In this document: positions 25,861-63,831 of the stretch, in pieces
How the letters are laid out: each line of letters starts with the position of its first letter
Position numbering within the stretch: position 1 is the first letter of the stretch
The notes under the pieces: model-generated
What the model was told of the DNA's origin: nothing
What the model saw: the letters and a program-made list of their open reading frames with translations, nothing else
The model's database searches: none
Source: an uncultured Pseudomonadota bacterium
GTDB taxonomy: Bacteria; Pseudomonadota; Alphaproteobacteria; RF32; CAG-239
Assembly: GCA_949289935.1 (NCBI GenBank)
Contig: CASEQD010000002.1
Location: 65,847-129,846, forward strand
Reading direction: 5' to 3'
Length of the DNA: 64,000 bases
Made by a program: the position numbers and the translations under genes

Positions 25861-25950
25861 GGAGAGATGGCAGAGTGGTCGAATGCGGTTGACTCGAAAT
25901 CAATTGTGCGCGTAAGCGTACCGGGGGTTCAAATCCCTCTCTCTCCGCCA
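25861..25950 (+). tRNA. tRNA-Ser (CGA)
   Basis: A 90-base class II tRNA: acceptor GGAGAGA pairs with TCTCTCC, the anticodon loop CTCGAAA gives anticodon CGA, and a long variable arm (GTGCGCGTAAGCGTAC) is present. CCA is encoded. Its last four bases start the 48-bp repeat that also occurs at 36133. Confidence 0.95.
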
Positions 25951-25994
25951 TTTTGATTAAAAAGACGCTCGTTTGCAGCGTCTTTTTTCGTATC
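25947..25994 (+). repeat. Left copy of 48-bp direct repeat, probable attachment site
   Basis: This 48-base sequence starts at the GCCA end of tRNA-Ser and contains that gene's terminator hairpin. It recurs at 36133-36180 with a single mismatch (C at 25970, G at 36156). The two copies are 10,186 bases apart in the same orientation and enclose a serine recombinase and phage-type genes. I infer they are attL and attR; which copy belongs to the ancestral chromosome is suggested by the tRNA, which is intact on this side. Confidence 0.8.
25959..25988 (+). terminator. Intrinsic terminator after tRNA-Ser
   Basis: AAAAGACGCT pairs with AGCGTCTTTT around a seven-base loop, followed by T residues. It lies within the attachment repeat. 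Confidence 0.8.
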
Positions 25995-26117
25995 TGGCGG
26001 AAATGCGGGCTTTGCGAGCGGTTGACTCCGCCGAAATGACTATGGTAAGCTCGTTTTATGTTAGAAAATGCGAAATTTAAGACCGTTACATACTTTGCCG
26101 ACTTTTGCAAAGTCACT

Positions 26118-27038
26118 TCAGCGAGATAATATTTGTTTTATTGTAGCTAGTTCAAAATTTGAATCAGGAATTTCAAGTTGTTGAAGTTTATTTCTTTTTA
26201 TTTCTTTATCCTCATCGTCATAAAAAGAAACAAACCATTTTGCGTCGTTGTCAGCACTGTGCTTTACTGTCCTAAAATAACCAATATCAATATCTGAAAT
26301 TGAATGCCCTAAAATGTAGATTGTATCTGTTGAGATTAAATTATCAAAAAATTCATGATTATTGGATATTATGTGTTTTACATCTTTATAAACACTGTTT
26401 TGAACAGTTTCAAAAGCTCGAATACCAGCGATATCTTCATATATATCATCTTCTGTTTGTTTAGGAAATTCACACAATGTATTGTGCCCCATTACCAAAT
26501 TTTCCTCAGACCATTTTCCATGGACATATAAAATTTGTTGAGGCTGTATATTATATGTTTTTTCTAAAGTATTTGTGTAATTAAAACAAAGGAATTTATC
26601 ACTAGAAGATAATAGTATATTATAAAGAGGCAGGCATGGTGTTTGGTGAATAAAATTAATCCATTTAGGTAAATATTTTTTGAATATCCTACAAAATGAA
26701 TAATTATCATCAATGGCTATTTCTTGGTTATGATAATCTCTGCTACGAAAATCATCGTCACCATAGGAAACATTTAATTTTCGGTATTCTTCCAGTTCAT
26801 CTTGAACAATTTCAGGTTGAAACATTAAGTCAAGAGCGTGCTCAATATCAGACCATAGCTGACTATTTTTTTCCATATAGTAGTCAAAAGCGGAAAAAGC
26901 TTTTTCTTCAAAATTTTTAATAATTAATTGAATTTTTGTGTCATTACTACTTCTTAAGAATTTTGCAAAATCTGTATACTTTGTTTTTCTGTTATGAGCC
27001 AAATCAAAACCATTGCCAATTATATAAAGCTTAGACAT
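26118..27038 (-). CDS. AbiH family abortive infection protein
   Basis: The 306-residue protein matches the AbiH phage-defence family: the N-terminus reads IIGNGFDLAHNRKTKYTDFAKFL (residues 5-27, here in part), FNYTNTLEKTYN lies near residue 155, LYVHGK near 172, and ILGHSISDIDIGYF near 245. The biochemical mechanism of AbiH is not established. It is the outermost gene of the element, next to the attachment site, and lies 8 bases downstream of the recombinase gene on the same strand. Such edge positions are typical of defence cargo. Confidence 0.85.
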   Translation of the reverse strand: MSKLYIIGNGFDLAHNRKTKYTDFAKFLRSSNDTKIQLIIKNFEEKAFSAFDYYMEKNSQLWSDIEHALDLMFQPEIVQDELEEYRKLNVSYGDDDFRSRDYHNQEIAIDDNYSFCRIFKKYLPKWINFIHQTPCLPLYNILLSSSDKFLCFNYTNTLEKTYNIQPQQILYVHGKWSEENLVMGHNTLCEFPKQTEDDIYEDIAGIRAFETVQNSVYKDVKHIISNNHEFFDNLISTDTIYILGHSISDIDIGYFRTVKHSADNDAKWFVSFYDDEDKEIKRNKLQQLEIPDSNFELATIKQILSR

Positions 27039-27046
27039 TAAAGTTC

Positions 27047-28678
27047 CTATCCATTAATAAACCTTTCTTGTTTTTCGAAAATATCATATTTAGAAGCTAT
27101 TTCAAATAGTTTTTGCAGGTTGACGGTTAGAGAACCATCAAGAATCTGGTTGACTATTCTTGGCGAGAGATAAGCAAGGTTTAGGTATTTATAAATTGTG
27201 CGTTTGGAGATGTGTTCTTGCTTGGCGATGTCATCGGTTGCCATACCGTTTTCGTAAAGTTTTTTATATCGCCAAGCGTAGGCGAAGGCTCTAACGATGA
27301 GGCGGTTGTTGTCATTGATGCTCATCAGTCCGACCTTTCCGGCATTATAGACATTGCTTGACAGCCCGCGGTTGATGACCACTTGTTTTTCATAGATGAT
27401 TTGATTGTTGGCATTATCAGCAATAAACTCCAGCGGGTTGTTGCTTTCATTCAGCGAATCGCCGGTATAGGCCGAGAGGATTATCGGATCGGTATTAAAG
27501 AAGAAGGTCAGGCGATCTTTTTGATAGATGATTTTGTTAATGAAGTTGCGGATAAAATTGCGTTGTGCGAAATAGTCCATATCGTTAAAGTTTATCAGCT
27601 TTAGAGCCATTGCGCTGTCTTTGTTTAAGCCATTGAGATTGCCGTTAAGAATCTCAATAATGGCATCTTTGGCGAGCTTATCAATTTGCTCCGTGGGTAA
27701 GAACAAGCCCTTAATAGAATAGTAATGTCGTTTGGTGGCTTTCTTTTTGCTGTTAGCTTGATTGGTAAAAATAGTGCCATTGGCATCAAATAACTTGCCG
27801 GTCAGCAGGTTATTGTTTCGGTTCCTTGTATGATTGCCGCAGTTGTCATTTTCTTTGAGCTTGGCTTGTACCTTTTCCCACAAATCTTTTGATATGATAG
27901 CCTCATGCTGTCCTTTGAATGCTTGTCCGGTGCGTTTATTTTCAATCATGCCGAGGTATAATTTTTCATGTAGTAAGCGGTGGAGTGCGGATATTTTAAA
28001 AGGTTTGCCGCCCCTCTGTTCGCCTTTGTTGGTTATCCAGCCTTTATGTTTGAAGCCTTTAATTTCAGCAAATTTTTCAAGTTCTGCCAGCGAGTCGCAT
28101 TGCAGATAGCCTTCAAAAATGCTGCGTATCTGTTCGGCTTCGACCGGATTAATGACTAGTTTTTTATCTTTAATATCGTAACCAAGTTTGGGAACACCGC
28201 CCGTCCATAGGCCTTTGGCTTTACTGGCACGGATTTTGTCACGGACACGTTCTGATGATACCTCTCGCTCGAATTGTGCAAATGACAGCAGCATATTTAA
28301 GGTCAACTTGCCCATGGAGGTTGATGTATCAAAAGCCTGAGTAATTGAAACAAAACTGCAGCCATATTTATCAAATTCTTTCATCATATTGTGGAAATCC
28401 ATGATGGAGCGTGATAAGCGGTCAACCTTGTAAACCACCACCGTTTGAATTAACCCCCGGCGGATATCCTCTAACATCTGTTTTAATGCCGGACGTTCCA
28501 TGGTGCCGCCGGAGATGCCGCCATCGGTGTAGGTTTTGAAATATTCCCAGTTGTTAAAGGCTTGAGACATAATATAACTGCGGCAGGCGTCTTCCTGATT
28601 ATGCAAGGAGTTAAACTCAAGTTCCAAGCCTTTTTCGGTAGATTTACGGACATAAACCGCACAATTTACTCTAACCAT
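27047..28678 (-). CDS. Large serine recombinase (integrase)
   Basis: This 543-residue protein is a large serine recombinase, which would integrate and excise the element. The catalytic domain covers about residues 1-150: nucleophile Ser13 in YVRKSTEKG, GGISGGTMERPALKQML near 53, KVDRLSRSIMDF near 85 and FAQFEREVSSERVRDKI near 133. A recombinase domain (PKLGYDI near 160 to 250) follows, then a zinc-ribbon-like region that seems to lack a full cysteine set, and a long C-terminal region ending in a helix-turn-helix-like segment (ISKRTIYKYLNLAYLS near 500). It overlaps the DUF2924 gene by 8 bases. Confidence 0.92.
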   Translation of the reverse strand: MVRVNCAVYVRKSTEKGLELEFNSLHNQEDACRSYIMSQAFNNWEYFKTYTDGGISGGTMERPALKQMLEDIRRGLIQTVVVYKVDRLSRSIMDFHNMMKEFDKYGCSFVSITQAFDTSTSMGKLTLNMLLSFAQFEREVSSERVRDKIRASKAKGLWTGGVPKLGYDIKDKKLVINPVEAEQIRSIFEGYLQCDSLAELEKFAEIKGFKHKGWITNKGEQRGGKPFKISALHRLLHEKLYLGMIENKRTGQAFKGQHEAIISKDLWEKVQAKLKENDNCGNHTRNRNNNLLTGKLFDANGTIFTNQANSKKKATKRHYYSIKGLFLPTEQIDKLAKDAIIEILNGNLNGLNKDSAMALKLINFNDMDYFAQRNFIRNFINKIIYQKDRLTFFFNTDPIILSAYTGDSLNESNNPLEFIADNANNQIIYEKQVVINRGLSSNVYNAGKVGLMSINDNNRLIVRAFAYAWRYKKLYENGMATDDIAKQEHISKRTIYKYLNLAYLSPRIVNQILDGSLTVNLQKLFEIASKYDIFEKQERFING

Positions 28679-29123
28679 GAGCCGCCTCCTTTAATACCCG
28701 TTTGTTATTTAATCCGAAGAAGTCATAACCGGAGACCTTTATGCCGCAGATTTCTTTGGCTGTAGCGGATAAGGTTTTATAATGCTGTCCGTTGTAGATA
28801 AAATCGTTGGCTTCCGCGATAGTGACTTTATATTGCCGACCAAGATAGGTCTTAATGATTTCGGTACCGGGATGCAGGTTGTATTTGGTCTTATAAACCT
28901 TAACTATACACTCATCGGGGTTTTCGGCATATTTTTCCAGCTTAGTCAGGTGCTTGCGTTCAATTTTAAGATTGGCATTTTCGCAGGCGATATAATACCA
29001 TAGCGCGCGGAACTGTCGTTCATAGGGACTGTTATGATACCGCGCCCATAGTTCAGCTTGTTTCTGGTGATTTAGCTTTTTTAATTCTTTAGTGCTTTTC
29101 GGCAGATAAATCTTCTTTCTCAT
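28671..29123 (-). CDS. DUF2924 family protein, recombinase partner
   Basis: The 150-residue protein has the DUF2924 signature in its C-terminal half: HPGTEIIKTYLGRQYKVTIAE near residue 80, FIYNGQHYKTLSATAKEI near 107 and GYDFFGL near 133. Genes of this family are regularly found directly upstream of large serine recombinases in alphaproteobacterial prophages and islands; an accessory role in recombination is often suspected but unproven. Here it is co-transcribed with and overlaps the recombinase gene. Confidence 0.85.
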   Translation of the reverse strand: MRKKIYLPKSTKELKKLNHQKQAELWARYHNSPYERQFRALWYYIACENANLKIERKHLTKLEKYAENPDECIVKVYKTKYNLHPGTEIIKTYLGRQYKVTIAEANDFIYNGQHYKTLSATAKEICGIKVSGYDFFGLNNKRVLKEAAHG

Positions 29124-29355
29124 CAGTCAACTCCTTGTTTTAGCGTATTTTGTAAGTTCAGTAACGCTTACATGAGACAAGAAGTCAACTCTAATAGATA
29201 GCTTAGACAAAAAACAAGATGTGTAAAAGCTGGTGTCACACGAAAGAGCTTGCTTCTAATACATTGTAAATAAATAAAAATTTTTTGTATACTATATACC
29301 ACGTTTTTCTGAAGAGGAAAAAGCCTTGTTTAGACAAAAAAGTAAGGAGTAAATC

Positions 29356-30690
29356 ATGTTTAACAAGCATATAAAAATTGAATATACAGCCTTGGAAAAT
29401 CTTAACCCTTATAAAGGAAATCCTAAGGTTCATGATGAGAAACAAATTCAGCAAATCGCTAAATCGATTGAGCGTTTTGGTTTTAATAATCCCATTTTGA
29501 TTGATGAAAAATCAGAGGTAATTGCCGGTCATGGTCGTCTGTTGGCCGCAAGGCTGTTGAAACTGGAAGCAGTTCCGGTAGTTCGTCTCATACATCTTTC
29601 TGAAGCGGAAAAACGGGCTTATCGCATAGCAGACAATAAATTATCGGAGAATGGTCGATGGGATACGGATTTGTTGAAGCTGGAATTTTCAGAAATTGAG
29701 AAACTGGCTCTGAATCTAGAAGATGAATTGAATCTGGATATTACCGGGTTTGATTTTAAGGAGATAGATGTTCTTTTGGCCGATAATAAACCTAACGAAA
29801 AAGCGGATGAAAAACTTAATTCCGTTCCGTATGTGCCTGAAAATGAAATAGTCAGTCAACACGGCGATGTCTGGCTTCTGGGAAAACACAAAATTATTTG
29901 CGGAGATTCATTGCAAGAGGAAACATATCAGCGTTTGTTTGAAGAGGTTAAAGCCAATATGGTTTTTATTGATCCGCCGTACAATGTTAAAATTCAAGGA
30001 CATGTTTGCGGCGCAGGTCAAACGAAGCATAAAGAGTTTGCTTTTGGTTCCGGCGAGATGAATGAGGCTGAATTTATTTCGTTTTTGAAAACATCAATGG
30101 CGAATATAGCCAAATATTCTGCTGAAAATTCCATTCATTATGTTTGCATGGATTGGCGGCATATATACGAGCTGCTTTCAGCGGCGAGGGATATTTATCC
30201 TAAAATGCTGAATATGGTGGTTTGGTGCAAGAAAAACGGCGGAATGGGAAGTTTTTACCGTTCGCAGCATGAGCTGATTTTCGTTTTTCAGCATGGCAAA
30301 GGTTCTCATGTTAATAATGTGGAGTTAGGCAAGCATGGGCGCTATCGGACGAATATCTGGCACTATGCCGGTGTTAACAGTTTTGGTTCCGAACAGAAAA
30401 ATCTTAAAATGCATCCAACCGTTAAGCCTGTGGAATTAGTCCGCGATGCGATTTTGGATGCTTCTAAACGCGGCGATATTGTGCTGGATGCGTTTCTCGG
30501 CAGCGGAACAACGCTGATTGCGGCGGAAAAGGCCGGACGCGTTTGTTATGGAATCGAATATGAGCCCTTGTATACCGACACAATTATCCGCCGATACCAT
30601 GAACTGACCGGAAATTTGGCCATTCATCAAAGTTCGCAAAAATCATATGAGCAATTATTGCAAGAAAAATTGGAGAGAAACAATGAATGA
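29356..30690 (+). CDS. ParB-like and DNA methyltransferase fusion
   Basis: This 444-residue protein joins an N-terminal ParB-like nuclease domain (residues about 5-125: NPYKGNPKVHDEKQIQQIAKSI, VIAGHGRLLAA, RAYRIADNKLSE) to an N6-adenine or N4-cytosine methyltransferase (about 170-440). Catalytic motif DPPYN is near residue 206 and the cofactor-binding motif FLGSGTTLIAAEKAGR near 379, so it is a permuted beta-class enzyme. A clear ribosome site (AAGGAG) precedes the ATG. No restriction nuclease lies beside it. It overlaps the DUF5681 gene by 8 bases, so it belongs to the packaging module. Confidence 0.9.
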   Translation: MFNKHIKIEYTALENLNPYKGNPKVHDEKQIQQIAKSIERFGFNNPILIDEKSEVIAGHGRLLAARLLKLEAVPVVRLIHLSEAEKRAYRIADNKLSENGRWDTDLLKLEFSEIEKLALNLEDELNLDITGFDFKEIDVLLADNKPNEKADEKLNSVPYVPENEIVSQHGDVWLLGKHKIICGDSLQEETYQRLFEEVKANMVFIDPPYNVKIQGHVCGAGQTKHKEFAFGSGEMNEAEFISFLKTSMANIAKYSAENSIHYVCMDWRHIYELLSAARDIYPKMLNMVVWCKKNGGMGSFYRSQHELIFVFQHGKGSHVNNVELGKHGRYRTNIWHYAGVNSFGSEQKNLKMHPTVKPVELVRDAILDASKRGDIVLDAFLGSGTTLIAAEKAGRVCYGIEYEPLYTDTIIRRYHELTGNLAIHQSSQKSYEQLLQEKLERNNE

Positions 30691-31054
30691 AAGCGGTTAT
30701 AAAAATCCGCCCAAACATTCGCGATTTCAGAAGAGGTGTTCGGGTAATCCGGCTGGGAGGCCGAAAGGAAGCAAAAACACGCTGAAACTTCTGGATGCTG
30801 TTTTGGAACAGAAAATCAAAATCCAGCAAGAGGGCAAAACCATCAGTATTACCAAAAAGCAGGCAATGCTGATGCAATTGGTCAATGCTGCGGTAAAAGG
30901 CGAGATTAAGGCCATTGCGGCGCTTTTCCCGTATATGATACAGCTAGACATGAAAGAAGAGCAATCTTTAGAAACAAGCAAATTGTCTCTAAGCGATGAA
31001 GAAATTTTACAACAATTTTTAGAACAAAATAAACAGGAGAGCCAAAATGACTAA
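30683..31054 (+). CDS. DUF5681 family protein, possible small-terminase partner
   Basis: The 123-residue protein opens with the DUF5681 signature SRFQKRCSGNPAGRPKGSKN (residues 13-32) and continues as a helical, charged protein. Such genes sit directly upstream of large terminase genes in many prophages; a small-terminase-like DNA recognition role is a reasonable inference. The ATG at 30683 is supported by GGAGA 8 bases upstream and by the overlap with the methyltransferase stop. It overlaps the terminase start by 8 bases. Confidence 0.85.
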   Translation: MNESGYKNPPKHSRFQKRCSGNPAGRPKGSKNTLKLLDAVLEQKIKIQQEGKTISITKKQAMLMQLVNAAVKGEIKAIAALFPYMIQLDMKEEQSLETSKLSLSDEEILQQFLEQNKQESQND

Positions 31055-32573
31055 TAAAAATCTGGTTAAAAATGCGATATTACGCCAAAGTTTTTCAAGC
31101 TTTGTACAGAAGTGTTTTTATGAATTAAACCCATCAGAAACATTTATAAAAGGCATGTATATAGACTTATTATGCGATCAAATCCAAAATATGATTGAGG
31201 GAAAAAATCAGAAATTGATAATCAATCTTCCTCCAAGATATTTAAAATCGGTCATATGTTCTATAGCTTTGCCTGCGTTTATTTTAGGGCATAATCCGTC
31301 AGCCAAAATTATGTGTATCAGCTATGGTGAGGAGTTGGCTTCCGACTTAGCGGCAGATTGCAAGTGCGTTATGGAGGCGGACTGGTATAAAGTCCTTTTT
31401 CCTGAGACGAGAATCCGGGCAGATAAAAGATCTATTATGGATTTTGAAACGACAAAACACGGTGGACGGTTTGCAACGACAATTTCAGGAGCGGTCACAG
31501 GTCGTGGTGCAGACTGGATTATTATAGATGATCCGCTAAAATCAGGCGATGCCTTTTCTGATATACAGAGAGAAAAAGTTAATGAACTCTATGGAAATTC
31601 CGTCATCTCCAGACTTAATGATAAAAATACAGGAAGAATACTTGTGATAATGCAACGTTTACATATGCATGATTTATCTGGTTTTCTGTTTGAAAACGAT
31701 CCTGATTTTAAATCTGTTGTTTTGTCTTTAGTTGCGGAACAAGATGAAAAATGGCAAATAAAAAATCATATTACCGGACAGATAACTATATATGAGCGAA
31801 AAAAAGGCGAATTATTGCATCCCCAAAGAGAAGGAGAGCGTATTGTGGATAGTTATAAAAATTCGATGGGAAGCTTTGCTTTCTCAGCACAATACCAACA
31901 AAACCCTATATCGGTTGGCAGTGGTATAATAAAACCTGAATGGCTTAAATACTATACCTATCCAGGAAGATTGGATAGGGTTCTTCTATCTTGGGATACA
32001 GCGGCAAAAACCAATGACAATTGCGCATACTCTGCTTGTGTTGTTGTCGGATTAGGAAATGATAATAAGTATTATTTGCTTGAAGTTATCCGGGAAACGT
32101 TGGAATTTCCAGATTTAGTAACGAAGGTTGAAACTGTGCATCAAAAATTTGAAGAAATATTTTATAATCGGACGATAACTCTTATTGAAAATGAATCTTC
32201 CGGTATTCAGCTCTATCAAATGTTGAGAAATAAAATATCGAATATAAGACCCTGTTCTTGCCATCGCTCGAAGGAGCAACGATTTAATATCGTCAGCCTG
32301 AAAATCGAAAGAGGGGAATTGTTATTACCGACTGAATACAAAGATTGGTTTAATGATTTTAAGAAAGAGCTGTTAGCTTTCCCTTATTCTTCTTTTAAGG
32401 ATCAATGTGATGCGCTGAGTCAGGCTTTAAACTACTGCAATGAGAATAATATTCAAGCAACGCCCCAAATGGCGTTATGCTCCAGAGGAACAGGCTATGG
32501 ACATGCCGATAGCAGCCATCTTGCCGCAAGATATGAGCCCCAAAAATATATTTTCGGAGGAAAGTTCAGATAA
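31047..32573 (+). CDS. Phage terminase large subunit
   Basis: This 508-residue protein is a terminase large subunit: an ATPase and nuclease that packages phage DNA. The N-terminal ATPase domain has NLPPRYLKSVICSIALPAFI near residue 59 (Walker A in the LKS form usual for this subfamily), KIMCISYGEELASDLAADC near 90, GAVTGRGADWIIIDDPLKSGDA near 148 with Walker B, and VIMQRLHMHDLSGFL near 200. The C-terminal RNase H-like nuclease shows LLSWDTAAKTND near 312 and LIENESSGIQL near 380. Both domains look intact. It is not followed by portal or capsid genes. Confidence 0.93.
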   Translation: MTNKNLVKNAILRQSFSSFVQKCFYELNPSETFIKGMYIDLLCDQIQNMIEGKNQKLIINLPPRYLKSVICSIALPAFILGHNPSAKIMCISYGEELASDLAADCKCVMEADWYKVLFPETRIRADKRSIMDFETTKHGGRFATTISGAVTGRGADWIIIDDPLKSGDAFSDIQREKVNELYGNSVISRLNDKNTGRILVIMQRLHMHDLSGFLFENDPDFKSVVLSLVAEQDEKWQIKNHITGQITIYERKKGELLHPQREGERIVDSYKNSMGSFAFSAQYQQNPISVGSGIIKPEWLKYYTYPGRLDRVLLSWDTAAKTNDNCAYSACVVVGLGNDNKYYLLEVIRETLEFPDLVTKVETVHQKFEEIFYNRTITLIENESSGIQLYQMLRNKISNIRPCSCHRSKEQRFNIVSLKIERGELLLPTEYKDWFNDFKKELLAFPYSSFKDQCDALSQALNYCNENNIQATPQMALCSRGTGYGHADSSHLAARYEPQKYIFGGKFR

Positions 32574-32587
32574 GCAGTTTTTAGAAC

Positions 32588-32923
32588 TTACTTGCTGGTT
32601 AGTGTGTAATTATCTATGAAACTTAATAGAGAAACGAGTTGTTTTTCATCCATAAAATCTAATTTACGGATGATTTTTTCTTTAGTTTCTTGAAGATAAG
32701 GAGAATTATCTTTTAAGGAAGCGGTAATATCAATATCCAAAACATAAAGCAGCTTGTATAGGCTGTAAGAACGTGGATTTTGTTTTTGATTCTCTATCAA
32801 ATTGATGGAAGAATAATCCATTTCGCTTAATTCTGATAATTTTTCGCTGGAAAGTTTTTTAGCCTGACGATTCTTTCGAATGGAATCGCTAACCAGCCTT
32901 AAAAACTCTTTTTCATTAAGCAT
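32588..32923 (-). CDS. XRE family transcriptional repressor
   Basis: The 111-residue protein has an N-terminal Cro/C1-type helix-turn-helix (about residues 8-65: FLRLVSDSIRKNRQAKKLSSEKLSEL, LIENQKQNPRSYSLYKLLYVL, here in parts) and a short C-terminal tail with no peptidase domain. Its stop is 15 bases from the terminase stop. Two 18-bp inverted repeats lie in its upstream region, so it probably represses its own promoter and the divergent cargo genes. Confidence 0.88.
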   Translation of the reverse strand: MLNEKEFLRLVSDSIRKNRQAKKLSSEKLSELSEMDYSSINLIENQKQNPRSYSLYKLLYVLDIDITASLKDNSPYLQETKEKIIRKLDFMDEKQLVSLLSFIDNYTLTSK

Positions 32924-32942
32924 GCTTCACCCCTTAAAAATA

Positions 32943-32994
32943 TATTGGGATGATACAATAGCTTTTTTGATAAAAGTATTGTGATAAAACAATA
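32943..32994. promoter_or_regulatory. Two matching 18-bp operators between the XRE gene and the cargo genes
   Basis: Inverted repeats at 32943-32960 (TATTGGGATGATACAATA) and 32977-32994 (TATTGTGATAAAACAATA) agree at 15 of 18 positions and share half-site TATTG. Their starts are 34 bases apart, close to three helical turns. They lie 20 to 71 bases upstream of the XRE start and before the divergent gene at 33045. Confidence 0.65.
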
Positions 32995-33044
32995 TAATTT
33001 TATTGACTAAACAAAATAATTAAACCAACATAAGGATAAATAAA

Positions 33045-33338
33045 ATGGCGTTAGTTTACGTTACGGATTATATATATCAGGCGGATATAAAAGTATTTGC
33101 CGTCAATGAGAAGTATCAGGCTGATTTATGTTTTTTCGAGGTTGATCGAGATTACAAGGCCAATACGGAGGCAAAATGGTTTTTTGAAGATAAGGACTAT
33201 AAAGCTACGGTTAAAATATATTGGGTTGAACATGAGTATCAGGCAGATCTGAAAGTCTTCCGTGTTACGCAGGAACACCTAGCCGGTTGGCAAAAGAGCC
33301 ACCGTTTGATTACAAGATTGGGAAAATACACATATTAA
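33045..33338 (+). CDS. DUF6150-like repetitive beta protein
   Basis: The 97-residue protein consists of about five copies of a YxADLKVFxV unit: YQADIKVFAV near residue 9, YQADLCFFEV near 22, YKANTEAKWFF near 35, YKATVKIYWV near 49 and YQADLKVFRV near 61. It ends GWQKSHRLI. This is the layout I know from DUF6150 proteins, function unknown. The units alternate polar and hydrophobic residues and should form beta strands. It is the first gene of the cargo block controlled from the XRE operator region. There is an AAGGA ribosome site. Confidence 0.72.
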   Translation: MALVYVTDYIYQADIKVFAVNEKYQADLCFFEVDRDYKANTEAKWFFEDKDYKATVKIYWVEHEYQADLKVFRVTQEHLAGWQKSHRLITRLGKYTY

Positions 33339-33350
33339 AGGAGATAAAAA

Positions 33351-33599
33351 ATGACAGAGGAAGTTAAAAAAGAAACCCCAAAAACAAAATTGCCCGGCTT
33401 GCCACCGCTGGCTGCGTTTATTTATGCGGTTCTCATTTTTATTATGACCATGGGGTACCTTAAGGTATTTCTTATTATGGGTTTCAGGATGAATCCTGAT
33501 GAAGCCGGAATGTTGTCATTTTTTGCGGGAGCGTTTTTTGCCTATATCGGCAACAGAGGCGTTAGAGCCATGTTTAAGCTGAGAGAACTGTCGAAATAA
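33351..33599 (+). CDS. Small two-helix membrane protein
   Basis: This 82-residue protein has a charged, Pro- and Lys-rich N-terminus and two hydrophobic segments (about residues 23-45 and 51-66), followed by a basic tail. Size, topology and position in a phage-like element would fit a holin, but there is no endolysin beside it, so I leave the function open. It follows the DUF6150-like gene by 12 bases with a strong AAAGGAG ribosome site. Confidence 0.7.
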   Translation: MTEEVKKETPKTKLPGLPPLAAFIYAVLIFIMTMGYLKVFLIMGFRMNPDEAGMLSFFAGAFFAYIGNRGVRAMFKLRELSK

Positions 33600-33611
33600 A
33601 GGATGTAGGTT

Positions 33612-34424
33612 ATGGTTAGGATATTGCGCACAGTAACTTGGAACTTTGGCTACGGTTCTGTTGGTTCACCCAGCAAGAACAACAAGACGAAAGTTCAAAA
33701 AGCCCTTGAATATCTACGGAAAAATAATGTGGATATTATTTTGGCGCAGGAAATTTTTGATCCAAGCGAGTTGCGGTGTCTTTATCCTAACCAGATTTAT
33801 TCTGACATTCCCGTTTATAATCCGCAGGGGCAAGGATTATGGGGCGCGATGGATTTTTCGATCGATACGAGCAATAACAATAGCCGCCCTAAATGGGGAA
33901 CGGCGATATTGGCTGCCGAGAATATCAATTTGAACAAAATTGAGTTAAAATATAGCACAGCCTATCCGGGAAGCATGACTGTTGCACAGATTGCAGGAAC
34001 GGATATTGCCGTTATTTCCATGTATGGCAAAAATGTCTGCGATTATGAAAAAGTAACGGCTTTTTCGTATCTGGCCAATCTGCATCGCTGTTTATCCGAT
34101 ACCGCGCCGCTGCTGGACGGTTTTTCGTCTGCCAAAAGATTTATTATTGCCGGCGATTGGAATGCCGGGCCGCAATGGGATAAGGGGAAATCGCGCAAGA
34201 ATTTTAACTTTTTTGAGCGGCTGGCAACCTTTGACCTCAAGGATTGTTTGGGGCATTTTCCTGACGGCGGTTATGAAACAACATTTAAACATAACGGCAA
34301 TAGACAGATAGACTGGATGTTTGCCAGCCAGACGTTTACCGCTCATAATCCGCGTGTTGATTATACGGCGGAGATTGAGGATTTATCTGATCATTACCCG
34401 ATAATTGCGGAATTTGAGATATAA
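33612..34424 (+). CDS. Endonuclease/exonuclease/phosphatase family protein
   Basis: The 270-residue protein has the EEP fold of DNase I and related phosphodiesterases. Catalytic segments are visible: TWNFGYGS near residue 8, IILAQEIFD near 41 (metal-binding Glu), GDWNAGPQW near 181 and SDHYPIIAEF near 260 (catalytic His). There is no signal peptide. Whether it cuts nucleic acid or another phosphodiester is unknown. It is within the cargo block, 12 bases after the small membrane protein, and ends 10 bases before the next start. Confidence 0.85.
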   Translation: MVRILRTVTWNFGYGSVGSPSKNNKTKVQKALEYLRKNNVDIILAQEIFDPSELRCLYPNQIYSDIPVYNPQGQGLWGAMDFSIDTSNNNSRPKWGTAILAAENINLNKIELKYSTAYPGSMTVAQIAGTDIAVISMYGKNVCDYEKVTAFSYLANLHRCLSDTAPLLDGFSSAKRFIIAGDWNAGPQWDKGKSRKNFNFFERLATFDLKDCLGHFPDGGYETTFKHNGNRQIDWMFASQTFTAHNPRVDYTAEIEDLSDHYPIIAEFEI

Positions 34425-34434
34425 AGGAGTAACA

Positions 34435-34857
34435 ATGCCATTTTTATGCTTTTTTCTTAGTTTTATTGCTCCTTTTGCTGCATATGCCCAAAATGACAGT
34501 TCAATGGAAGCAGATTCCGGTGGGTTGGTTTCTGTCGCATTTCCGGTTATCGTTATTTGTTATGTCGTTTTCAATATTATAGGCTTTATTTGGAGATATC
34601 GCTGTCCGAAATGCAAAAAATGGTGGGTAATGCGGCAAGAAAAGAAGAAACTGCTAAACACTGACATTGAAACTGAAGTCAGAAAAGAAGAAATAAAAGA
34701 CAATAATGGAAATGTGCTGCGAGTGGAGGAAATAAAGGTTCCTGTATTGGTTCATCATTATGAAATTTGGCAAAAATGTAAACGGTGCGGACATCTTGTT
34801 AGGCATCTTGAGGATGAAAGGGAAGAAAAATATGACCGGACAACGTTCAAATCATGA
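34435..34857 (+). CDS. Unknown membrane protein with zinc-ribbon cysteines
   Basis: The 140-residue protein has a signal-peptide-like N-terminus (to about residue 19, ending AAYAQ), a membrane segment near residues 34-54, then CPKCKKWWVM near 62 and CKRCGH near 121, two CxxC pairs that could form a zinc ribbon split by a 50-residue charged insert. I recognise no family. The start at 34435 has AAGGAG 7 bases upstream and is preferred to the open frame from 34405. It belongs to the element's cargo block. Confidence 0.68.
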   Translation: MPFLCFFLSFIAPFAAYAQNDSSMEADSGGLVSVAFPVIVICYVVFNIIGFIWRYRCPKCKKWWVMRQEKKKLLNTDIETEVRKEEIKDNNGNVLRVEEIKVPVLVHHYEIWQKCKRCGHLVRHLEDEREEKYDRTTFKS

Positions 34858-34869
34858 AAGGAAGCTTAT

Positions 34870-35781
34870 ATGCGGAAAATGGGTTTATTGTGCGGAATTG
34901 CATTGTTAGTTGGTTGCTCTGCAATAAAGGAAAAGGTTGAGTTTGAGCTTTTAGCAGAAGCATGGATGATAAAATCAAATTCCTCAGCGAGAATAAATTC
35001 ATGTAAACAGTTAAAAACGGAAAGTTTTGATATCTTTTATTCTAAGGAGAATCAAAAATGTTTAAAAAACTATGGAGAATCCTTAAAAAAACAGCTTGAA
35101 GAAATGAATAAGAAAGACAGCAAAGCTGTTTCTCTTAGTTTTGTAGATGAAGTTATTCAAAATCGGCAAAAATATGGCGAATGTAAAATAACTAAAGGTC
35201 TGGATATCGAAAATGGGGAGATGTATTTGGAATATTATAAGGATGTGTACCAGATTTGTAGAGATTCCAATTATTTTAAAGTCGGAGATGCTGATCGTAT
35301 TATCGCCGATTATGAGAAAATAGATCAATTTAAACGCAGTCTGCCCAAACAGCAAGATTTGCAAAGCAAACAATATTTGGCACAAAGGGAAGCCTCCTTT
35401 AAACTCAAGCTTCAAGGCGTATTGTCGAAGGTAAATACGGATCCGGTGCTAAAGAAATTTAAGCAAAATGCACCTGATTTCATGATGGTCGGAATTGGCG
35501 ACGATGACAGTTGTCCTTTGGTTCTGTTTTTTGATATTATGCATAGTAAGGCATCAGCTTTCCATTCTGATCTGGCTTTTCCGCAGAATTATAAGTTTAT
35601 TCGAAAAAATGCGAATATTTTAGAGGTTTTTATCGGTGATTTTGAATTGAAATTTGCAAAAAATGGAAAAAACAGCATTAATGCAATCTTTGTTCGAATG
35701 ATAGATCTTGAAGGAAATACAATTACAAGCAAAAACACCGCGGAAAATAATTTTACCCTGCAGATGATATGTGGTATTTGA
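34870..35781 (+). CDS. Unknown lipoprotein
   Basis: The 303-residue protein has a lipoprotein signal peptide with lipobox LVGC (Cys16), so it should be lipid-anchored in the envelope. The mature part is Lys- and Glu-rich with many Cys residues (for example SCKQL near 44, KCLKNY near 64 and QICRDS near 137). I recognise no family. It is the last gene of the element before the right attachment repeat and follows the zinc-ribbon gene by 12 bases. Surface exclusion or a role in host interaction is possible but not supported by motifs. Confidence 0.7.
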   Translation: MRKMGLLCGIALLVGCSAIKEKVEFELLAEAWMIKSNSSARINSCKQLKTESFDIFYSKENQKCLKNYGESLKKQLEEMNKKDSKAVSLSFVDEVIQNRQKYGECKITKGLDIENGEMYLEYYKDVYQICRDSNYFKVGDADRIIADYEKIDQFKRSLPKQQDLQSKQYLAQREASFKLKLQGVLSKVNTDPVLKKFKQNAPDFMMVGIGDDDSCPLVLFFDIMHSKASAFHSDLAFPQNYKFIRKNANILEVFIGDFELKFAKNGKNSINAIFVRMIDLEGNTITSKNTAENNFTLQMICGI

Positions 35782-36132
35782 TAAGCTGGTGGATAGGTAA
35801 TGATCAGAAAGTTTATTAGGTATTGCATTTTCATCTCCAGTTGATGAAGAAGTTTTAGAAGAAAATTTATAATTGTTAAAAACATTCCCTGTTTCTAATT
35901 TTAAATTCCCTGATAAATTTGCATCTAGTTAGGTGTTATCCGAGCAAAACTGTATGTTTGCAGGAGTTTTGCACATAAAATTAGATTAAATTTCCCTGTA
36001 GATTCCCTGTTATTGCAGTGAGGCAATGATGCATTTGTGATTCGATGTTCGAAAAGATTTGTGGTCATCGTTTTAGAATATTAGCGAAATTTCATCTTTC
36101 GTATGCTTAATACCGTTGGGGTTTACTACACT
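35782..36132. other. Non-coding right end of the element
   Basis: No gene is visible in this stretch. It contains four copies of the word TTCCCTG (near 35885, 35907, 35991 and 36002) in the same orientation, and a hydrophobic-free AT-rich background. It may include remnants of a former attachment region. Confidence 0.5.
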
Positions 36133-36180
36133 GCCATTTTGATTAAAAAGACGCTGGTTTGCAGCGTCTTTTTTCGTATC
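36133..36180 (+). repeat. Right copy of 48-bp direct repeat, probable attachment site
   Basis: This copy matches 25947-25994 at 47 of 48 positions, including the terminator hairpin at 36145-36174. It lacks the tRNA body upstream. See the left copy for interpretation. Confidence 0.8.
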
Positions 36181-57573: not shown

Positions 57574-57649
57574 AGGGGTATAGCTCAGTTGGTAGAGCAT
57601 CGGTCTCCAAAACCGAGGGTCGTGAGTTCGAATCTTACTGCCCCTGCCA
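57574..57649 (+). tRNA. tRNA-Trp (CCA)
   Basis: A 76-base cloverleaf: acceptor AGGGGTA pairs with TGCCCCT, anticodon loop CTCCAAA gives anticodon CCA, the T loop is TTCGAAT and CCA is encoded. It marks the left edge of the AT-rich accessory region. Confidence 0.95.
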
Positions 57650-57659
57650 CTCAAGATGA

Positions 57660-57683
57660 AGGCGCTGAAAAGCGTCTTTTTTC
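57660..57683 (+). terminator. Intrinsic terminator after tRNA-Trp
   Basis: AGGCGCT pairs with AGCGTCT around GAAA, followed by a T tract. Confidence 0.75.
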
Positions 57684-58147
57684 TTTATAAATCAATAAGT
57701 TAACCGAGTCCGTGTGAGATGTTATCAAAGAGGCTGTTTCCCGCTTGTTACACGGACCCTCTCATATAAAATTCTTTATTTTACAAGCATTTAATGCGGT
57801 TGGAACCTTATAGCCGTTTGGGATTATCATCTATCAAAAGTCGGATTTGAAACTTGCGATGATGAAAGTTTTTGACGTTGACGACAAATTATTTTTTTCT
57901 CTTAAATTTTTTCTGCTTAAATAATATCTCTTCAAAAAAGGCTATTTTTTCAACTGGCCCCTTATAACGCGTGAGATAGGAAATGACTCCAGCCTTTTTT
58001 AGTAAGCCATATATCACAACATCCAACATTTGTGCGTTAAAGGTTAAGGCCAATAGGTTAAGATGCCCTAATTAAAATTGTAAATGAGGTTGAAAAAACA
58101 TGGAAACCGAAGTCTCCCTGTCTTATTCTTCAAAATTCAAATTACAA
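57684..58147. other. AT-rich stretch with a possible gene remnant
   Basis: No certain gene is present. On the minus strand, an open frame without ribosome site at 57889-58029 encodes a 46-residue peptide (starts MLDVVIYGLLKKAGVISYLT, ends KKFKRKK) that has protein-like composition and could be the tail of a decayed gene; the frame extends upstream for 13 codons to a stop. An 8-bp inverted repeat (57708-57715 and 57750-57757) lies near the left end. Confidence 0.35.
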
Positions 58148-58468
58148 TTAATTATCTGTATCCTGTTTTCTAATTCGATAGACCCCTTTACTGGTTGTTT
58201 CAAGAATGCCATTATCTTTAGCACCACCTTTCATTAAAAACAGCTTCATACTTATGGCTTTTTTATTGCGAATTGGCGCTCCATTCGGCTCCGTAAACAT
58301 ATTATAATATGCGATTGTTATTTCATCGACGGTTAATTCGGTTTTGTTAAATTTGTCTTTAGCGACTCGAAAAATTTCCAGAATTTCTTCGGTCATATTG
58401 CGTTCTGCTTTTACTTTTACATTTAATTTTTTTTGTATTTCTTTGGTTGTTTCAAAAATATTTGCCAT
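58148..58468 (-). CDS. Unknown small protein
   Basis: This 106-residue protein is charged and appears helical in its first half and mixed in its second (NKKAISMKLFLMKGG near 68, KGVYRIRKQDTDN at the end). The N-terminal MANIFETTKEIQKKL follows a good ribosome site (AGAGGT, 6 bases before the ATG). I recognise no family; the layout would fit a small DNA-binding protein of winged-helix type, but this is only a guess. It lies in the accessory region. Confidence 0.6.
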   Translation of the reverse strand: MANIFETTKEIQKKLNVKVKAERNMTEEILEIFRVAKDKFNKTELTVDEITIAYYNMFTEPNGAPIRNKKAISMKLFLMKGGAKDNGILETTSKGVYRIRKQDTDN

Positions 58469-58618
58469 TTTTACCTCTTTTCTAAAAAAAAATCTTTTTT
58501 TTGATTATAATAATACCATTTTATCTTGTCAATATTTAATATAAAAACTTCGATAACGACCGGATATAAATACTATAAGCATTTATAAAAAAATTTAATT
58601 ATTTTTTATAAAAAACAC

Positions 58619-58705
58619 TTGACTCTGATTTAATTAAGACCTATATAATACCGCGTAATATATTTAATAGTCATTAAGGAGGTCAAAGAAATGAAAGAAG
58701 GATAA
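58619..58705 (+). promoter_or_regulatory. Promoter followed by a four-codon ORF with a strong ribosome site
   Basis: TTGACT (58619-58624) is 17 bases from TATATA (58642-58647), with TATAAT overlapping two bases on. AAGGAGG at 58676-58682 is eight bases before ATG at 58691, which reads M-K-E-G-stop. It may be a leader peptide or what remains of a deleted gene. Confidence 0.5.
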
Positions 58706-58723
58706 AGAAAAATTGCTTTCATC

Positions 58724-58757
58724 AAAAAAAGGCCACACATGATTCAGATGTGTGACC
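58724..58757 (-). terminator. Minus-strand intrinsic terminator-like hairpin
   Basis: GGCCACACAT pairs with ATGTGTGACC (one mismatch) around a seven-base loop; on the minus strand a run of seven T follows. No minus-strand gene is seen to the right of it, so a small RNA transcript is possible. Confidence 0.6.
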
Positions 58758-58993
58758 CCTTGATAAAAGTTTCGCCGAATTCGAAAGACGACTAACTTTA
58801 TATACCGATTTGTATATTAACGCAAATTTTATAATAGTAAACGTTTTTTTTCGATTTTCGGCCAATTTAACACCCGTATTTTCGGGATTAATTCAAAAAT
58901 TCTGGCCGGGTGCCAGCAGGGTTCAGTCTTTAAGTGAAGATTGAATATGCTTTGATTTAACTTATCGACCACCCTGGGTTTGGATATTTAAAA

Positions 58994-59314
58994 ATGTGCA
59001 ATGTTATTTGCAATATAAATTTGGCCTATGAGCCAGAAAACGAAGAATTGGCCATTATTCTTAACAATGCCAATGATTTTTGTGAAAAATTTGATTTAAA
59101 CGACATTTATTGCAATTCTATCAAAATTTTCATTAATTCGCCAAAACACTATTATGTTTTTGAAAAAGGTGTCCCTTTTGCGAAAGTTATTCCAGACACG
59201 AAAGAAGATGATGAAGACTTTGGCGATGACGAAACCTGCTGGAAAGAAGATGATGACGAATTCAATATCGATTCTGATTGTTACTGCTTTAATGATATTA
59301 AATGGAAAAATTAA
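58994..59314 (+). CDS. Unknown acidic small protein
   Basis: The 106-residue protein is strongly acidic, with runs of Asp and Glu in its last 40 residues, and it has seven cysteines (MCNVICNINL at the start, DSDCYCFND near the end). There is no signal peptide. I recognise no family. Small acidic proteins of phages and islands can mimic DNA, but no motif supports that here. Its stop is adjacent to the start of the methyltransferase-like gene (no gap), so the two are probably co-translated. Confidence 0.6.
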   Translation: MCNVICNINLAYEPENEELAIILNNANDFCEKFDLNDIYCNSIKIFINSPKHYYVFEKGVPFAKVIPDTKEDDEDFGDDETCWKEDDDEFNIDSDCYCFNDIKWKN

Positions 59315-61315
59315 ATGATGGCAAAAGAAAATCTGGCCGAAATGCCTGAAAACTACAATATGATGGACGAGGTTAAAGGCTCTACCGTCATGGCTGAACC
59401 CGAAGTACAGGCGACTGTTGCTTCAAATGTTAACGATAACCGGGAGGGGGATTTCCCTCTCCCCCCGAAAGGAGGTGCTGCAACAAAAGCAGTTGAAGAA
59501 AATACAGCTAATGAAAATGCCTCAGATATATCACAGCCTTTGTCTGTTGAAGATTTTATCAAGAACAAACAGCTTTCGCCGGAGACACTAAAGGAAATAA
59601 TAAATGCGGCTCAGAATGACAACTTATTCCCTGCCGAAAAATTAAACGGCAAAGAATTGACAGATAAAATCAACGAACTTCGCGAATGGGTTAACACCGA
59701 AGAAAGTCAGTTAAAAAGTACTCCATTCTCAATAGAGTTATACAACCAGAAGAAAGCTGTTTTGCAAGTGCGGGCTGCGTATGTATTGATTCTTGAGTGC
59801 TTAATTGGTGAGGTATTACGTCAAATTCCCAGACTAAACGGAACCAGCTCAAAATCTGAAAGACGGGCATCAGGACAAGAAAAGACAAAATCTCAAATTA
59901 TTAAGGAAGAGTACGGACTTTCTTCACGGTTGGCTCGTGACTTTCAGCACTTAACTTGGGACGGTGTAAAAGCTGCGCTTGAACTTGCTTTACGGCAAAA
60001 CGATATACCAACCAGAGCTTTGGCTTTGTCAAAGTCCGCATCAATTAAAGCCAAGCAAAATAAACATAATAAGAGGCTTAAACATACAAAGTTTGTACTG
60101 GACTATATCGAAGAAACCGAGACTAAAACTTTAAAGTTGGAAAAACCGATGTATATAACAACTCTGTTTTCAAATATTTCCATTGGATTGGCCAGAGTTC
60201 ATGAATTAAACTTGCATTGTCGGGTGGCCGTGGAATGGGATAAAACACGAGCTCATTGGCACGAGCTTTTATATCCTGACTGTCACATGGTGCAAGGCGA
60301 TTTTACTGACCCGACATATTTTAATGAAGCATTGGAATGGCATAAAAAGCAAGGCTGTGAAATTATAATGTCCAGCTGTTGTTGCGAGCCCTTTTCTAAT
60401 TTAAATAATTCACCAAAGAAAGGTGATGTGCCCGAGGCTAAGCAATTTTATTATGCTGCTGACTTTATTCTTAAAGCAAAGCCCAAATATTTTGTGTTTG
60501 AAAATGTTCCCGGCTTTGTAGATGCCAGACCTAAGATTGCTCATGACGTCCTTAAAAATAAAGACGGTGAAATTCGTTGTATCGGACAATATTTACGCGA
60601 TGTTTTAGGCGAAGAATATCATCTTAATTTTGGTATATATACCGCGGCTGATTATGGATGTGTTGAAGACAGATCTCGCTTAATAATCCTTGGTTGTCGC
60701 AAAGATATAAGCACCGAACCGTGGAAATTTCCTAAAAAACACTCGGTCAGAAAAATGTTATGGGAAGTCATTGGTGATTTAATGAGCTTAGGTAACGGAG
60801 AAATCGATCCAAACGACCCATGGCATTATGCCAGAGAACTGCCTGAACATATCATTAAAATCTTGGCACATACTCCAACTGGCTGTACTGCTTGGGATAA
60901 TGAAGCAGAATATCAACCTTTAACTGATAGCGGCGAATATAGCAACGGTAACTATGACAAAGGATTCACACGTAACGAATGGCAAGATCAATGCCCAACA
61001 ATTACAACCGGGAATGGTAGTATCAGTGATGTGTATTCGCTTCATCCGGGAAGATATAATCCTGAAACACAAGAATACACAGACTGCCGCGTTTTTTCAT
61101 TGAGAGAATTGCTTAAAATTATGGATTGCCCAAATGGTTTCTTCGACAAACTAAATCTTAAAAGAGAAGAAAACGGTATGTTGAATGAAACAGATGAAAA
61201 CAATCTCCGCAAAGCAATCGGTCAACACTTCTGTCCTCTGCATGTGAATGCTTTATACAGCACCTTACCTCTGCCGGCAAATGACAATAATAAACCTGAT
61301 GATAATGCGGCTTAA
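59315..61315 (+). CDS. C5-cytosine methyltransferase-like protein with N-terminal extension
   Basis: The last ~390 residues of this 666-residue protein have the C5-cytosine methyltransferase fold: ITTLFSNISIGLARVHEL near residue 280 (motif I region), AVEWD near 304, SSCCCEPFSNLN near 352 (motif IV), FVFENVPGF near 395 (motif VI, intact ENV), VEDRSRLIILG near 449 (motif VIII) and a C-terminal FSLRELLKIMDCPNGF near 595. The motif IV Pro before the catalytic Cys is replaced by Cys, and motif I lacks the usual glycines. The N-terminal ~270 residues (helical, basic towards the end) are unknown. No nuclease partner is visible. Confidence 0.8.
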   Translation: MMAKENLAEMPENYNMMDEVKGSTVMAEPEVQATVASNVNDNREGDFPLPPKGGAATKAVEENTANENASDISQPLSVEDFIKNKQLSPETLKEIINAAQNDNLFPAEKLNGKELTDKINELREWVNTEESQLKSTPFSIELYNQKKAVLQVRAAYVLILECLIGEVLRQIPRLNGTSSKSERRASGQEKTKSQIIKEEYGLSSRLARDFQHLTWDGVKAALELALRQNDIPTRALALSKSASIKAKQNKHNKRLKHTKFVLDYIEETETKTLKLEKPMYITTLFSNISIGLARVHELNLHCRVAVEWDKTRAHWHELLYPDCHMVQGDFTDPTYFNEALEWHKKQGCEIIMSSCCCEPFSNLNNSPKKGDVPEAKQFYYAADFILKAKPKYFVFENVPGFVDARPKIAHDVLKNKDGEIRCIGQYLRDVLGEEYHLNFGIYTAADYGCVEDRSRLIILGCRKDISTEPWKFPKKHSVRKMLWEVIGDLMSLGNGEIDPNDPWHYARELPEHIIKILAHTPTGCTAWDNEAEYQPLTDSGEYSNGNYDKGFTRNEWQDQCPTITTGNGSISDVYSLHPGRYNPETQEYTDCRVFSLRELLKIMDCPNGFFDKLNLKREENGMLNETDENNLRKAIGQHFCPLHVNALYSTLPLPANDNNKPDDNAA

Positions 61316-61522
61316 GAATAATCGGAGGTAGTTTCGGCTGCCTCCTCTTTACTTTTAAAGTTTTTGTCGTTAACGTCACAAACTTTTTATATGACCGCTT
61401 GCCTATTTTCCATATACACCGAAAAAATTCAAAAGTATGCAAAAAAATCACATAATGGAAATTTTTTTTATCAAAATCGCAGCGACAAACAATTCTAGAA
61501 ATAAAAATGTGCAGGATTGTTT
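61316..61522. other. Intergenic stretch with one copy of a 15-bp repeat
   Basis: No gene is seen. ACATAATGGAAATTT at 61450-61464 recurs at 62517-62531 beyond the next gene. Confidence 0.5.
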
Positions 61523-62308
61523 ATGCGAAAAAAACAGAAAATAAATAAGAAAAAGAAGAGCCAACGTTCTTACAAAGACTTTATTTCCATAGTTAAATGG
61601 CATAAAAATAAATTTGATGTCTTGTCTCATATAAGTAATATATATGGAAATGAGACTAAAAAAGAAGTTGTCGTTTATAGATTGCCATTATGGAGGGATA
61701 TAACTTTGATACAAAAACTGGCATACTTCTTTTATTTTATGGCAGAAACAAAACCTTTTAAGAACATCAAACCATTTACTCTAAACTTAAGCAAATCCTT
61801 TCGTAATAGATATAAGAATTTAACTTACAAAGAATTAAAAGCCGTTATCATCAAAAAAATATATGGTAACCTAGACTATATCCTTAAATCATCAAACAAA
61901 CCTATGATGTCATTTATTCTTGAAAATAAGACTAAGGATAAAAGAAAAGATATAACTGATAAAGAAACTCATATACACGGGATAAGAGAAGTATTTGATG
62001 AAGCGACAGATAGTAAAATAAGATTAGCCTTAAAGACATCTATATGTAATGGCAAGAAAGAGTATAATGAGCAGGAATATCGCAATATGCTACAGACTAA
62101 AGACAAATATACTAAATATGGAGCAAAAGGTTGGCTATGGTATTTTAATAAAGGTGTGTGTTGTAATCATGGACTTTATATATCCCAACCTCTTTTAGAA
62201 AAAATACGTAATGACTATGAACGACTTTACCAAGAATATAAAGAAAACATCAAAATATTAAAAGCAAAAGGTATCAAGATAAAATATACAAAACCGAAGA
62301 CATCATGA
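61523..62308 (+). CDS. Unknown basic protein
   Basis: This 261-residue protein is very basic, starting MRKKQKINKKKKSQRSYKDF, with many Lys, Asn and Tyr residues throughout and no membrane segment. Residues about 145-200 (HGIREVFDEATDSKIRLAL and onward) look globular. The codon choice is more AT-rich than in the core genes. An AGGA site lies before the ATG at 61523; an upstream TTG at 61517 is possible. I recognise no family. It is flanked by a 15-bp direct repeat. Confidence 0.6.
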   Translation: MRKKQKINKKKKSQRSYKDFISIVKWHKNKFDVLSHISNIYGNETKKEVVVYRLPLWRDITLIQKLAYFFYFMAETKPFKNIKPFTLNLSKSFRNRYKNLTYKELKAVIIKKIYGNLDYILKSSNKPMMSFILENKTKDKRKDITDKETHIHGIREVFDEATDSKIRLALKTSICNGKKEYNEQEYRNMLQTKDKYTKYGAKGWLWYFNKGVCCNHGLYISQPLLEKIRNDYERLYQEYKENIKILKAKGIKIKYTKPKTS

Positions 62309-62854
62309 TTGTAAGTATTATAAACTATATGAATGATACAGTATATATCTTATTTTATCCTCAAATGTCTGCAAACAGGTAAATCTTAAACAAAACACTT
62401 TCATAAACAAGCCTAAAACAACCCATAACAAGCCGTTTAACAAGAATCTGAGCAATCCTATATCAAATAAAAACCTTGAGTCCTGCTGTCAAAAAACAAG
62501 ATACCAATAAAAAACAACATAATGGAAATTTAAGCGTTTACAAATCCCAAGAATCGCGACAATACGTTTATATCAGATTCTTTAATGACGTTATAACACA
62601 TTGTAAATAGGTATTATTATGTTTGACTTCTGCTAAATTTTGCAAAAGTTGATTTATATTTTAACATGATAGTAAAAACAACCTCATTTTCATTTTAAAT
62701 TAGGTTAGTCGTTTGAATTTGCGCAAATATCTTGCAATAAGCCTATCCCATTAAGCCATAAACGACCCGTGGACTAAGAAATTACTTTTTCATAATAAAA
62801 CCTAAGCAGAAAGTAAAATCATCATCCACGGGTCAAAATATAAGATTCTTAAAT
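62309..62854. other. Non-coding AT-rich stretch with a long inverted repeat
   Basis: No gene is visible. It holds the second copy of the 15-bp repeat (62517-62531) and, at 62764-62834, a perfect 10-bp stem (GACCCGTGGA and TCCACGGGTC) that encloses 51 bases with a second, imperfect stem. Neither strand has a T tract after it, so it is not a plain terminator. Confidence 0.5.
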
Positions 62855-63441: not shown

Positions 63442-63462
63442 CTCAAATCTCCTTTATACCAA

Positions 63463-63806: not shown

Positions 63807-63831
63807 CTTTTAAGCAAAGGAATGTTAAAGA

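Follow-up and report, generated by a model that had tools for sequence, protein, structure and literature searches.

The window analysed here, a stretch of 64,000 nucleotides of DNA from a gut bacterium, carries a mobile island of ~10.19 kb (about 25945-36136) inserted at the 3' end of a tRNA-Ser(CGA) gene (25861-25950, plus strand, detected by ARAGORN). The original prediction had confined this element to 29356-35781, which is too short, since the element runs from the 3' end of the tRNA (25950) to about 36136. A left cargo slot between the tRNA and the recombinase gene is occupied by an AbiH abortive-infection gene (26118-27038, minus strand; PF14253, E=1.7e-48; PADLOC AbiH). The integrase that had been predicted is present as a large serine recombinase with Resolvase and Recombinase domains (27047-28678, minus strand; PHROG 95 integrase, E=1.7e-95), next to which lies a gene for a DUF2924 protein (28671-29123, minus strand; PF11149, E=4.8e-19). 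The two genes adjoin each other in 36 of the 41 loci having both, and from this linkage the DUF2924 protein may be a partner of the recombinase.

The rightward part of the element begins with three genes whose ends overlap and which form one packaging-type operon. Its first gene encodes a ParB-N6/N4 DNA methyltransferase (29356-30690, plus strand; N6_N4_Mtase, E=6.1e-34), whose ParB_N match falls just below the Pfam cut-off and whose ParB part is confirmed by PHROG ParB-like families. A DUF5681 protein (30683-31054, plus strand; PF18932, E=2.3e-20) occupies the small-terminase (TerS) position; its structural model (pLDDT 82.5) retrieved no PDB match at E<=0.001 and has no recognisable TerS fold. 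The third gene encodes a full-length large terminase (TerL) of 508 aa (31047-32573, plus strand; PHROG 38 "terminase large subunit", E=1.8e-87; Pfam Terminase_6C). These matches bear out the earlier claim of an intact large terminase accompanied by a DUF5681 neighbour and a ParB-methyltransferase. In the complete phage ct3Oc712 (MW202867), the gene order is methyltransferase, DNA-binding protein, terminase, portal, which places the methyltransferase-DUF5681-TerL trio at the start of a packaging operon; the terminase and DNA-binding protein of MW202867 have no detectable homology to those of the island.

Downstream of the operon lies an HTH_3 regulator (32588-32923, minus strand; PF01381, E=6.7e-06), which is probably the repressor that had been proposed, followed by five genes on the plus strand. 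These encode a DUF6150 protein (33045-33338; PF19647, E=1.6e-21), which is 97% identical in the related element of genome G127; an 82-aa protein that is membrane-like by eye (33351-33599; no family match, 99% identical in G127); an endonuclease/exonuclease/phosphatase-family protein (33612-34424; PF03372, E=7.2e-12); a membrane protein with a CxxC zinc-ribbon-like pair (34435-34857; weak Zn-ribbon matches only); and a lipoprotein with a signal and lipobox recognised by eye (34870-35781; no family above the cut-off). As anticipated, none of the five matched a portal, capsid, tail or lysis family. The lipoprotein could be modelled only at low confidence (pLDDT 65); the model has no significant PDB match and offers no hint of a capsid or portal fold, though this is not conclusive. 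The element as a whole contains no replication gene, and there is no conjugation gene among its annotated genes.

The original prediction that the element has no portal, capsid, tail or lysis gene was upheld by Pfam and PHROG profile searches, which found none. The element thus lacks a full virion gene set, and the portal, capsid or tail genes, or remnants of them, that mark a complete or defective tailed prophage are missing as well. No portal, capsid or tail family is among the 25 commonest PHROG matches of 128 large ORFs near island TerLs, and ten ORFs taken from the larger elements, those of G056 and G127, yielded no structural gene. Neighbour clusters that accompany related TerLs on as many as 49 of 80 viral contigs occur at none of the 80 genome loci carrying an island-type TerL. 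The PF04860 portal was found in none of 136 genomes of the bacterial family, the window's own included.

The left end of the element (25947-26105, plus strand) consists of the tRNA 3' end, an element-borne terminator and ~110 bp of conserved non-coding sequence with the promoter-like core TTGACW...TGACTATGGTAAGCT, and could be aligned at 27 places in genomes of the bacterial family. The non-coding part (window 25995-26105) keeps ~72-90% identity across genera. This conserved stretch could be a cargo promoter, a recombinase site or a packaging site. The right-end motif TATGCTTAATACCGTTGGGGTTTACTACACTGCCA (36095-36139, plus strand) is paired with left ends, both where a genome has an autonomous element and in the small cassettes, and comparison with other elements gives the conserved form TATGC..AATACCGTTGGG.TTTACTACACCGCCA. 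In those other elements, the chromosome resumes after the motif with CCGCCA and a terminator sequence particular to each genome; this reduces the shared core to about six bases, and the crossover probably lies in the last bases of tRNA-Ser(CGA), CCGCCA. A core of this length is in keeping with a serine recombinase. A second, 48-bp copy of the left-end sequence (36133-36180, plus strand; 98% identical to 25947-25994) was considered as the att core and rejected, as CCGCCA alone is common to other elements; the copy probably remains from an element that occupied this site earlier. The flavodoxin gene to the right of the G127 element encodes a protein 69.5% identical to the flavodoxin right of the window element, which indicates the same kind of site in two genera. 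No clean empty site was found within the genus, and the right-flank genes are not adjacent to a tRNA in relatives. With a tRNA-Ser site, two ends and a serine recombinase, the element has the site-specific chromosomal integration by its own recombinase that is expected of a satellite.

Two other regions of the same genome should be mentioned. A second, distant serine recombinase (35%) and DUF2924 protein (40%) are encoded near a tRNA-Met (L262, G000:C57, 2484-4588), with no terminase on that 11-kb contig. The part of the window that follows a tRNA-Trp (57574-64000) is AT-rich (GC 0.31-0.39), contains a 666-aa ORF that by eye is C5-type DNA methyltransferase-like, and is probably another mobile element.

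We screened other genomes for the same gene order, as the original prediction had suggested, and found that the core recurs in nine further genomes of the family and at loci across phyla. Within the bacterial family, 10 of 152 genomes carry the terminase, the window's own included. The nine others share the same core, the small G070 contig ending before the recombinase, and their element lies at tRNA-Ser wherever the contig includes the site. The element of G127 (contig FR885511.1, Azospirillum sp. CAG:239) is 17.8 kb long when its right-end motif is taken as the boundary. Sizes of the autonomous elements run from 10.2 to about 21.9 kb and do not obviously correspond to a capsid fraction. When the proteins of the window element are compared with those of G127, identity is 90-99% for the core and for the DUF6150, 82-aa and phosphatase-family proteins; it drops to 74% for TerL, 71% for the HTH regulator, 61% for the membrane protein and 33% for the lipoprotein. 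DnaB is 85% identical between these two genera; most element proteins are closer than this, which indicates horizontal spread.

A scan of 84,980 species genomes retrieved 80 TerL loci with 38-74% identity in Alphaproteobacteria, Betaproteobacteria, Acidobacteria, Elusimicrobia, Geothrix and others, at least two of these loci being family members already seen and some of the MAG names possibly reflecting binning errors. Cultured carriers include Collimonas sp. OK307, Geothrix terrae SG184, Nitrosospira briensis Nsp8 and Parvibaculum indicum DSM 25305. Where at least 2.5 kb upstream of TerL was available, the methyltransferase was present at 56 and DUF5681 at 51 of 60 loci. Among the 41 loci with at least 6 kb of flanking sequence on both sides, which come from several phyla, 38 have the methyltransferase, 28 the recombinase and 26 DUF2924. 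We found no open-access paper that deals with DUF5681 in this element or reports a terminase-only satellite, and the subscription literature may describe one; the islands are apparently a widespread, undescribed family.

In a tree of TerLs, 85 island TerLs (those with methyltransferase or DUF5681 neighbours) and 7 unclassified ones are split, with a support of 0.94, from all 58 TerLs encoded beside structural genes; the tree was sampled by similarity to the island TerL, and complete phages inside the clade may yet turn up. Closest to the clade from outside is L111, a phage contig that has portal and protease genes. The window's TerL has the Walker A/B ATPase and RNaseH-like nuclease residues of a Caudoviricetes large terminase, with Walker A (PPRYLKS), Walker B (IIIDDP) and the nuclease residues D317/E381/D452/D455 all intact. 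Walker A K67/S68, Walker B D161/D162 and nuclease D317, E381, D452 and D455 are kept in 84-85 of the 85 island TerLs, and the same residues are found in phage TerLs, including those of complete phages. Judged by its sequence, the island motor is under selection.

The C-terminal half of TerL is divergent. At the DNA level, the window and G127 are 88-93% identical as far as the TerL N-terminus and 95-97% identical in the genes just downstream of TerL, whereas the C-terminal half (window 31841-32573 versus L015) reaches only 57-65%. The C-terminal half looks as if it had been swapped or were under diversifying selection. Among pairs with N-termini 80-90% identical, the C-terminus has a median identity of 0.70 for island pairs (n=11) versus 0.84 for phage pairs (n=70). 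Prohead specificity lies at the C-terminus in lambda gpA and T3 gp19, which makes a changing helper portal a natural explanation of this divergence, and we infer that the divergent C-terminus may reflect just such a change.

Island cargo is often anti-phage and matches models of defence systems including type I restriction, DISARM DrmD, AriA, GajA, Old and AbiE. In other genomes, integrase-less cassettes of 1.4-4.9 kb with the same left and right ends are found at tRNA-Ser, sometimes in tandem; their contents include a SoFic-like Fic protein, an AbiL-like ATPase and a PDC-S32 candidate. The individual cassettes (L246 13204-14849, L247 11842-13314, L248 8753-13635, L249 5644-7329, L250 11043-13227, L251 10509-11993 and L253 5178-7326) have window-type left ends and mostly also right ends, and several contain Fic, AbiL-like or other defence-type genes. 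Tandem right-left junctions occur in L250 and L251. Because their ends are shared with the window element, we infer that the small units are non-autonomous cassettes that may be moved in trans.

Tailed prophages with connector, capsid and tail genes are present in the same bacterial family, and terminase-bearing prophage-like regions occur in two island genomes, G127 and G025. The candidate helpers are six prophage regions of this family (L293, L294, L295, L296, L297 and L298). Connector, capsid and tail genes were confirmed in L295 and L297, connector and capsid matches were found in L298, and the host genomes of L293 and L294 contain the island as well. With just 20-24% identity between the TerLs of resident prophages and that of the island, no helper can be singled out.

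Viral sequence records were searched as well. Over 5.2 kb, the human faecal "Bacteriophage sp." record MT839917.1 from Mexico matches the G127 element with 93.6% identity, and it likely comes from the virus-like particle study PRJNA646512 (PMC8361208), in which the preparation involved filtration, chloroform and DNase. The deposit also has chromosomal DNA. Three records of the same origin (MT835812.1, MT836276.1 and MT838275.1) hold chromosomal-type DNA of related alphaproteobacteria and call for caution if used as virion evidence. MT835812.1 contains dnaB and other chromosomal genes and is the same kind of record as MT839917.1, and in MT838275.1 an element end runs into AKR/AhpD/AraC genes like those of 44 of 136 family genomes. 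We rejected MT839917.1 as evidence of packaging, as records of the same kind hold host-type chromosomal DNA. About 69 kb of the G127 chromosome gave no match above 80% in phage collections. A junction of right end and left end in MT838275 (L184) was considered as a circular form and also rejected, both because such junctions occur in chromosomal contigs and because chromosomal-type sequence follows the junction. An exact pattern search of IMG/VR did not find the element end motifs.

We compared the island to known satellites. P4 has a tyrosine integrase, its own primase and capsid-sizing genes; the island, in contrast, encodes a TerL and a serine recombinase of its own but lacks a primase, and neither an alpha-type primase nor sid/psu is annotated in it. 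P4-like satellites resemble the island in being about 10 kb long, integrating into the chromosome, lacking capsid genes and having a hotspot of defence cargo (PMC9122126, PMC10803314), and P4 depends on its helper's terminase (PMC10690885). PICIs and SaPIs are alike in that redirected packaging is encoded by the island, some of them with their own TerS (PMC10690885). They use the helper's TerL, however, and the window element has a serine recombinase in place of a tyrosine integrase; no TerS-like fold, AlpA, pri/rep or other replication module, or packaging- or capsid-redirecting factor was found or annotated in it. Capsid-forming PICIs (cfPICIs) do have their own TerS and TerL (PMC10690885), but also encode portal, protease, capsid and connectors, and the island has no portal, protease or major capsid gene. 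PICMIs are small integrative elements, as is the island, and are carried in phage particles (PMC10803314, PMC11389934); VEIMEs and tycheposons are likewise small integrative islands carried in phage particles, according to the same sources. The PICMI core consists of an integrase, AlpA and a primase at fis, with no terminase, unlike the island with its tRNA-Ser site, serine recombinase and lack of a primase. By the features tested, the island is not a PICI, cfPICI, P4-like satellite or PICMI. Two complete phages share parts of it: Acidithiobacillus phage AcaML1 has the recombinase (49%) and the ParB-methyltransferase (38%), and ct3Oc712 has the operon order described above. Both have portal genes and MW202867 also coat genes, whereas the island has neither, and as far as tested their terminases fall outside the island clade.

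The original prediction of a satellite or packaging island stands in part. That the element is a mobile packaging-type island is strongly supported by its target site, two ends, recombinase and recurring core, together with a separate TerL clade, intact catalytic residues and no structural genes; its packaging into helper particles is a reading of gene content. On balance, we lean towards a satellite-like island that would excise and load its own DNA into helper phage shells with its own motor. Under this reading, infection with a tailed phage, or induction by one, would lift repression, and the recombinase with DUF2924 would excise the island. DUF5681, as a TerS substitute, would then join TerL in recognising an island site, for which the conserved left end is a candidate, and the two would pump the island into helper procapsids through the helper's portal. 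The methyltransferase would protect or mark island DNA, the defence cargo would pay the host, and the small same-ended cassettes would be moved in trans by the same recombinase and possibly the same motor. A wider version, to which we attach a more tentative and somewhat lesser credence, is that of widespread satellites in several phyla, with their own full motor and a borrowed virion, whose C-terminal motor half has adapted to helper portals and which move defence cassettes in trans.

The most serious alternative, though an unlikely one, is that the methyltransferase-DUF5681-TerL trio has been co-opted for a job other than packaging, such as defence or interference, and that the island moves by its recombinase plus natural transduction or another route. 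The trio might serve as a decoy motor, a poison motor or an ATPase-nuclease directed at unmethylated DNA, which would suit the abundance of defence genes on the islands, the tight linkage of a methyltransferase to an ATPase-nuclease, as in restriction-modification, the lack of any capsid or portal found near the operon, and the persistence of small cassettes at the same sites without TerL. Nevertheless, all catalytic residues of a packaging motor are kept and are identical to those of complete-phage TerLs, the operon order mirrors that of a phage packaging operon, and the rapid change of the TerL C-terminus agrees with a portal partner that varies, but also with evasion of an inhibitor. Slightly less probable still is an integrative island moved by conjugation or by generalised or lateral transduction, in which the trio serves regulation or is relic cargo. 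The ends and recombinase suffice for integration, the existence of integrase-less cassettes shows that the ends alone allow a unit to persist and spread, and the virome deposit contains host-type chromosomal DNA; set against this, the window element has no annotated conjugation gene, and a trio conserved across phyla with intact active sites is unlike a relic.

Two further explanations have little to recommend them. Alphaproteobacterial gene-transfer agents (GTAs) can have their genes at several loci. The island could on that account be part of a GTA whose capsid genes lie elsewhere on the chromosome, GTA operons being dispersed (PMC12946183), but we consider this the least probable explanation of all, given that no PF04860 portal occurs in the 136 family genomes and that the operon sits on a mobile element in only 10 of 152. 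Only marginally less improbable, and already largely refuted, is a decaying prophage that lost its structural genes. TerL, methyltransferase, repressor and integrase are all prophage-type genes, and a recombinase adjoining a DUF2924 gene is also found in a Wolbachia phage WO region (PMC10299305). However, the capsid-less set recurs in many genomes within one TerL clade, with reading frames, active sites and both element ends preserved; this recurring core and separate clade likewise contradict derivation by deletion from one full prophage, which the original prediction had named as an outcome that would count against it.

If the satellite-like reading is right, the distinguishing trait of these islands is a complete motor with no shell. 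The described satellites compared here either use a helper's large terminase or have their own capsid genes too, and a lineage with a motor but no shell would uncouple packaging from capsid specificity. The C-terminal variants of the island TerL form a natural set bearing on how a motor docks to a foreign portal, and since the carriers include cultured isolates, the island can be tested. If true, this would be a new route for the spread of anti-phage genes among gut and soil bacteria.
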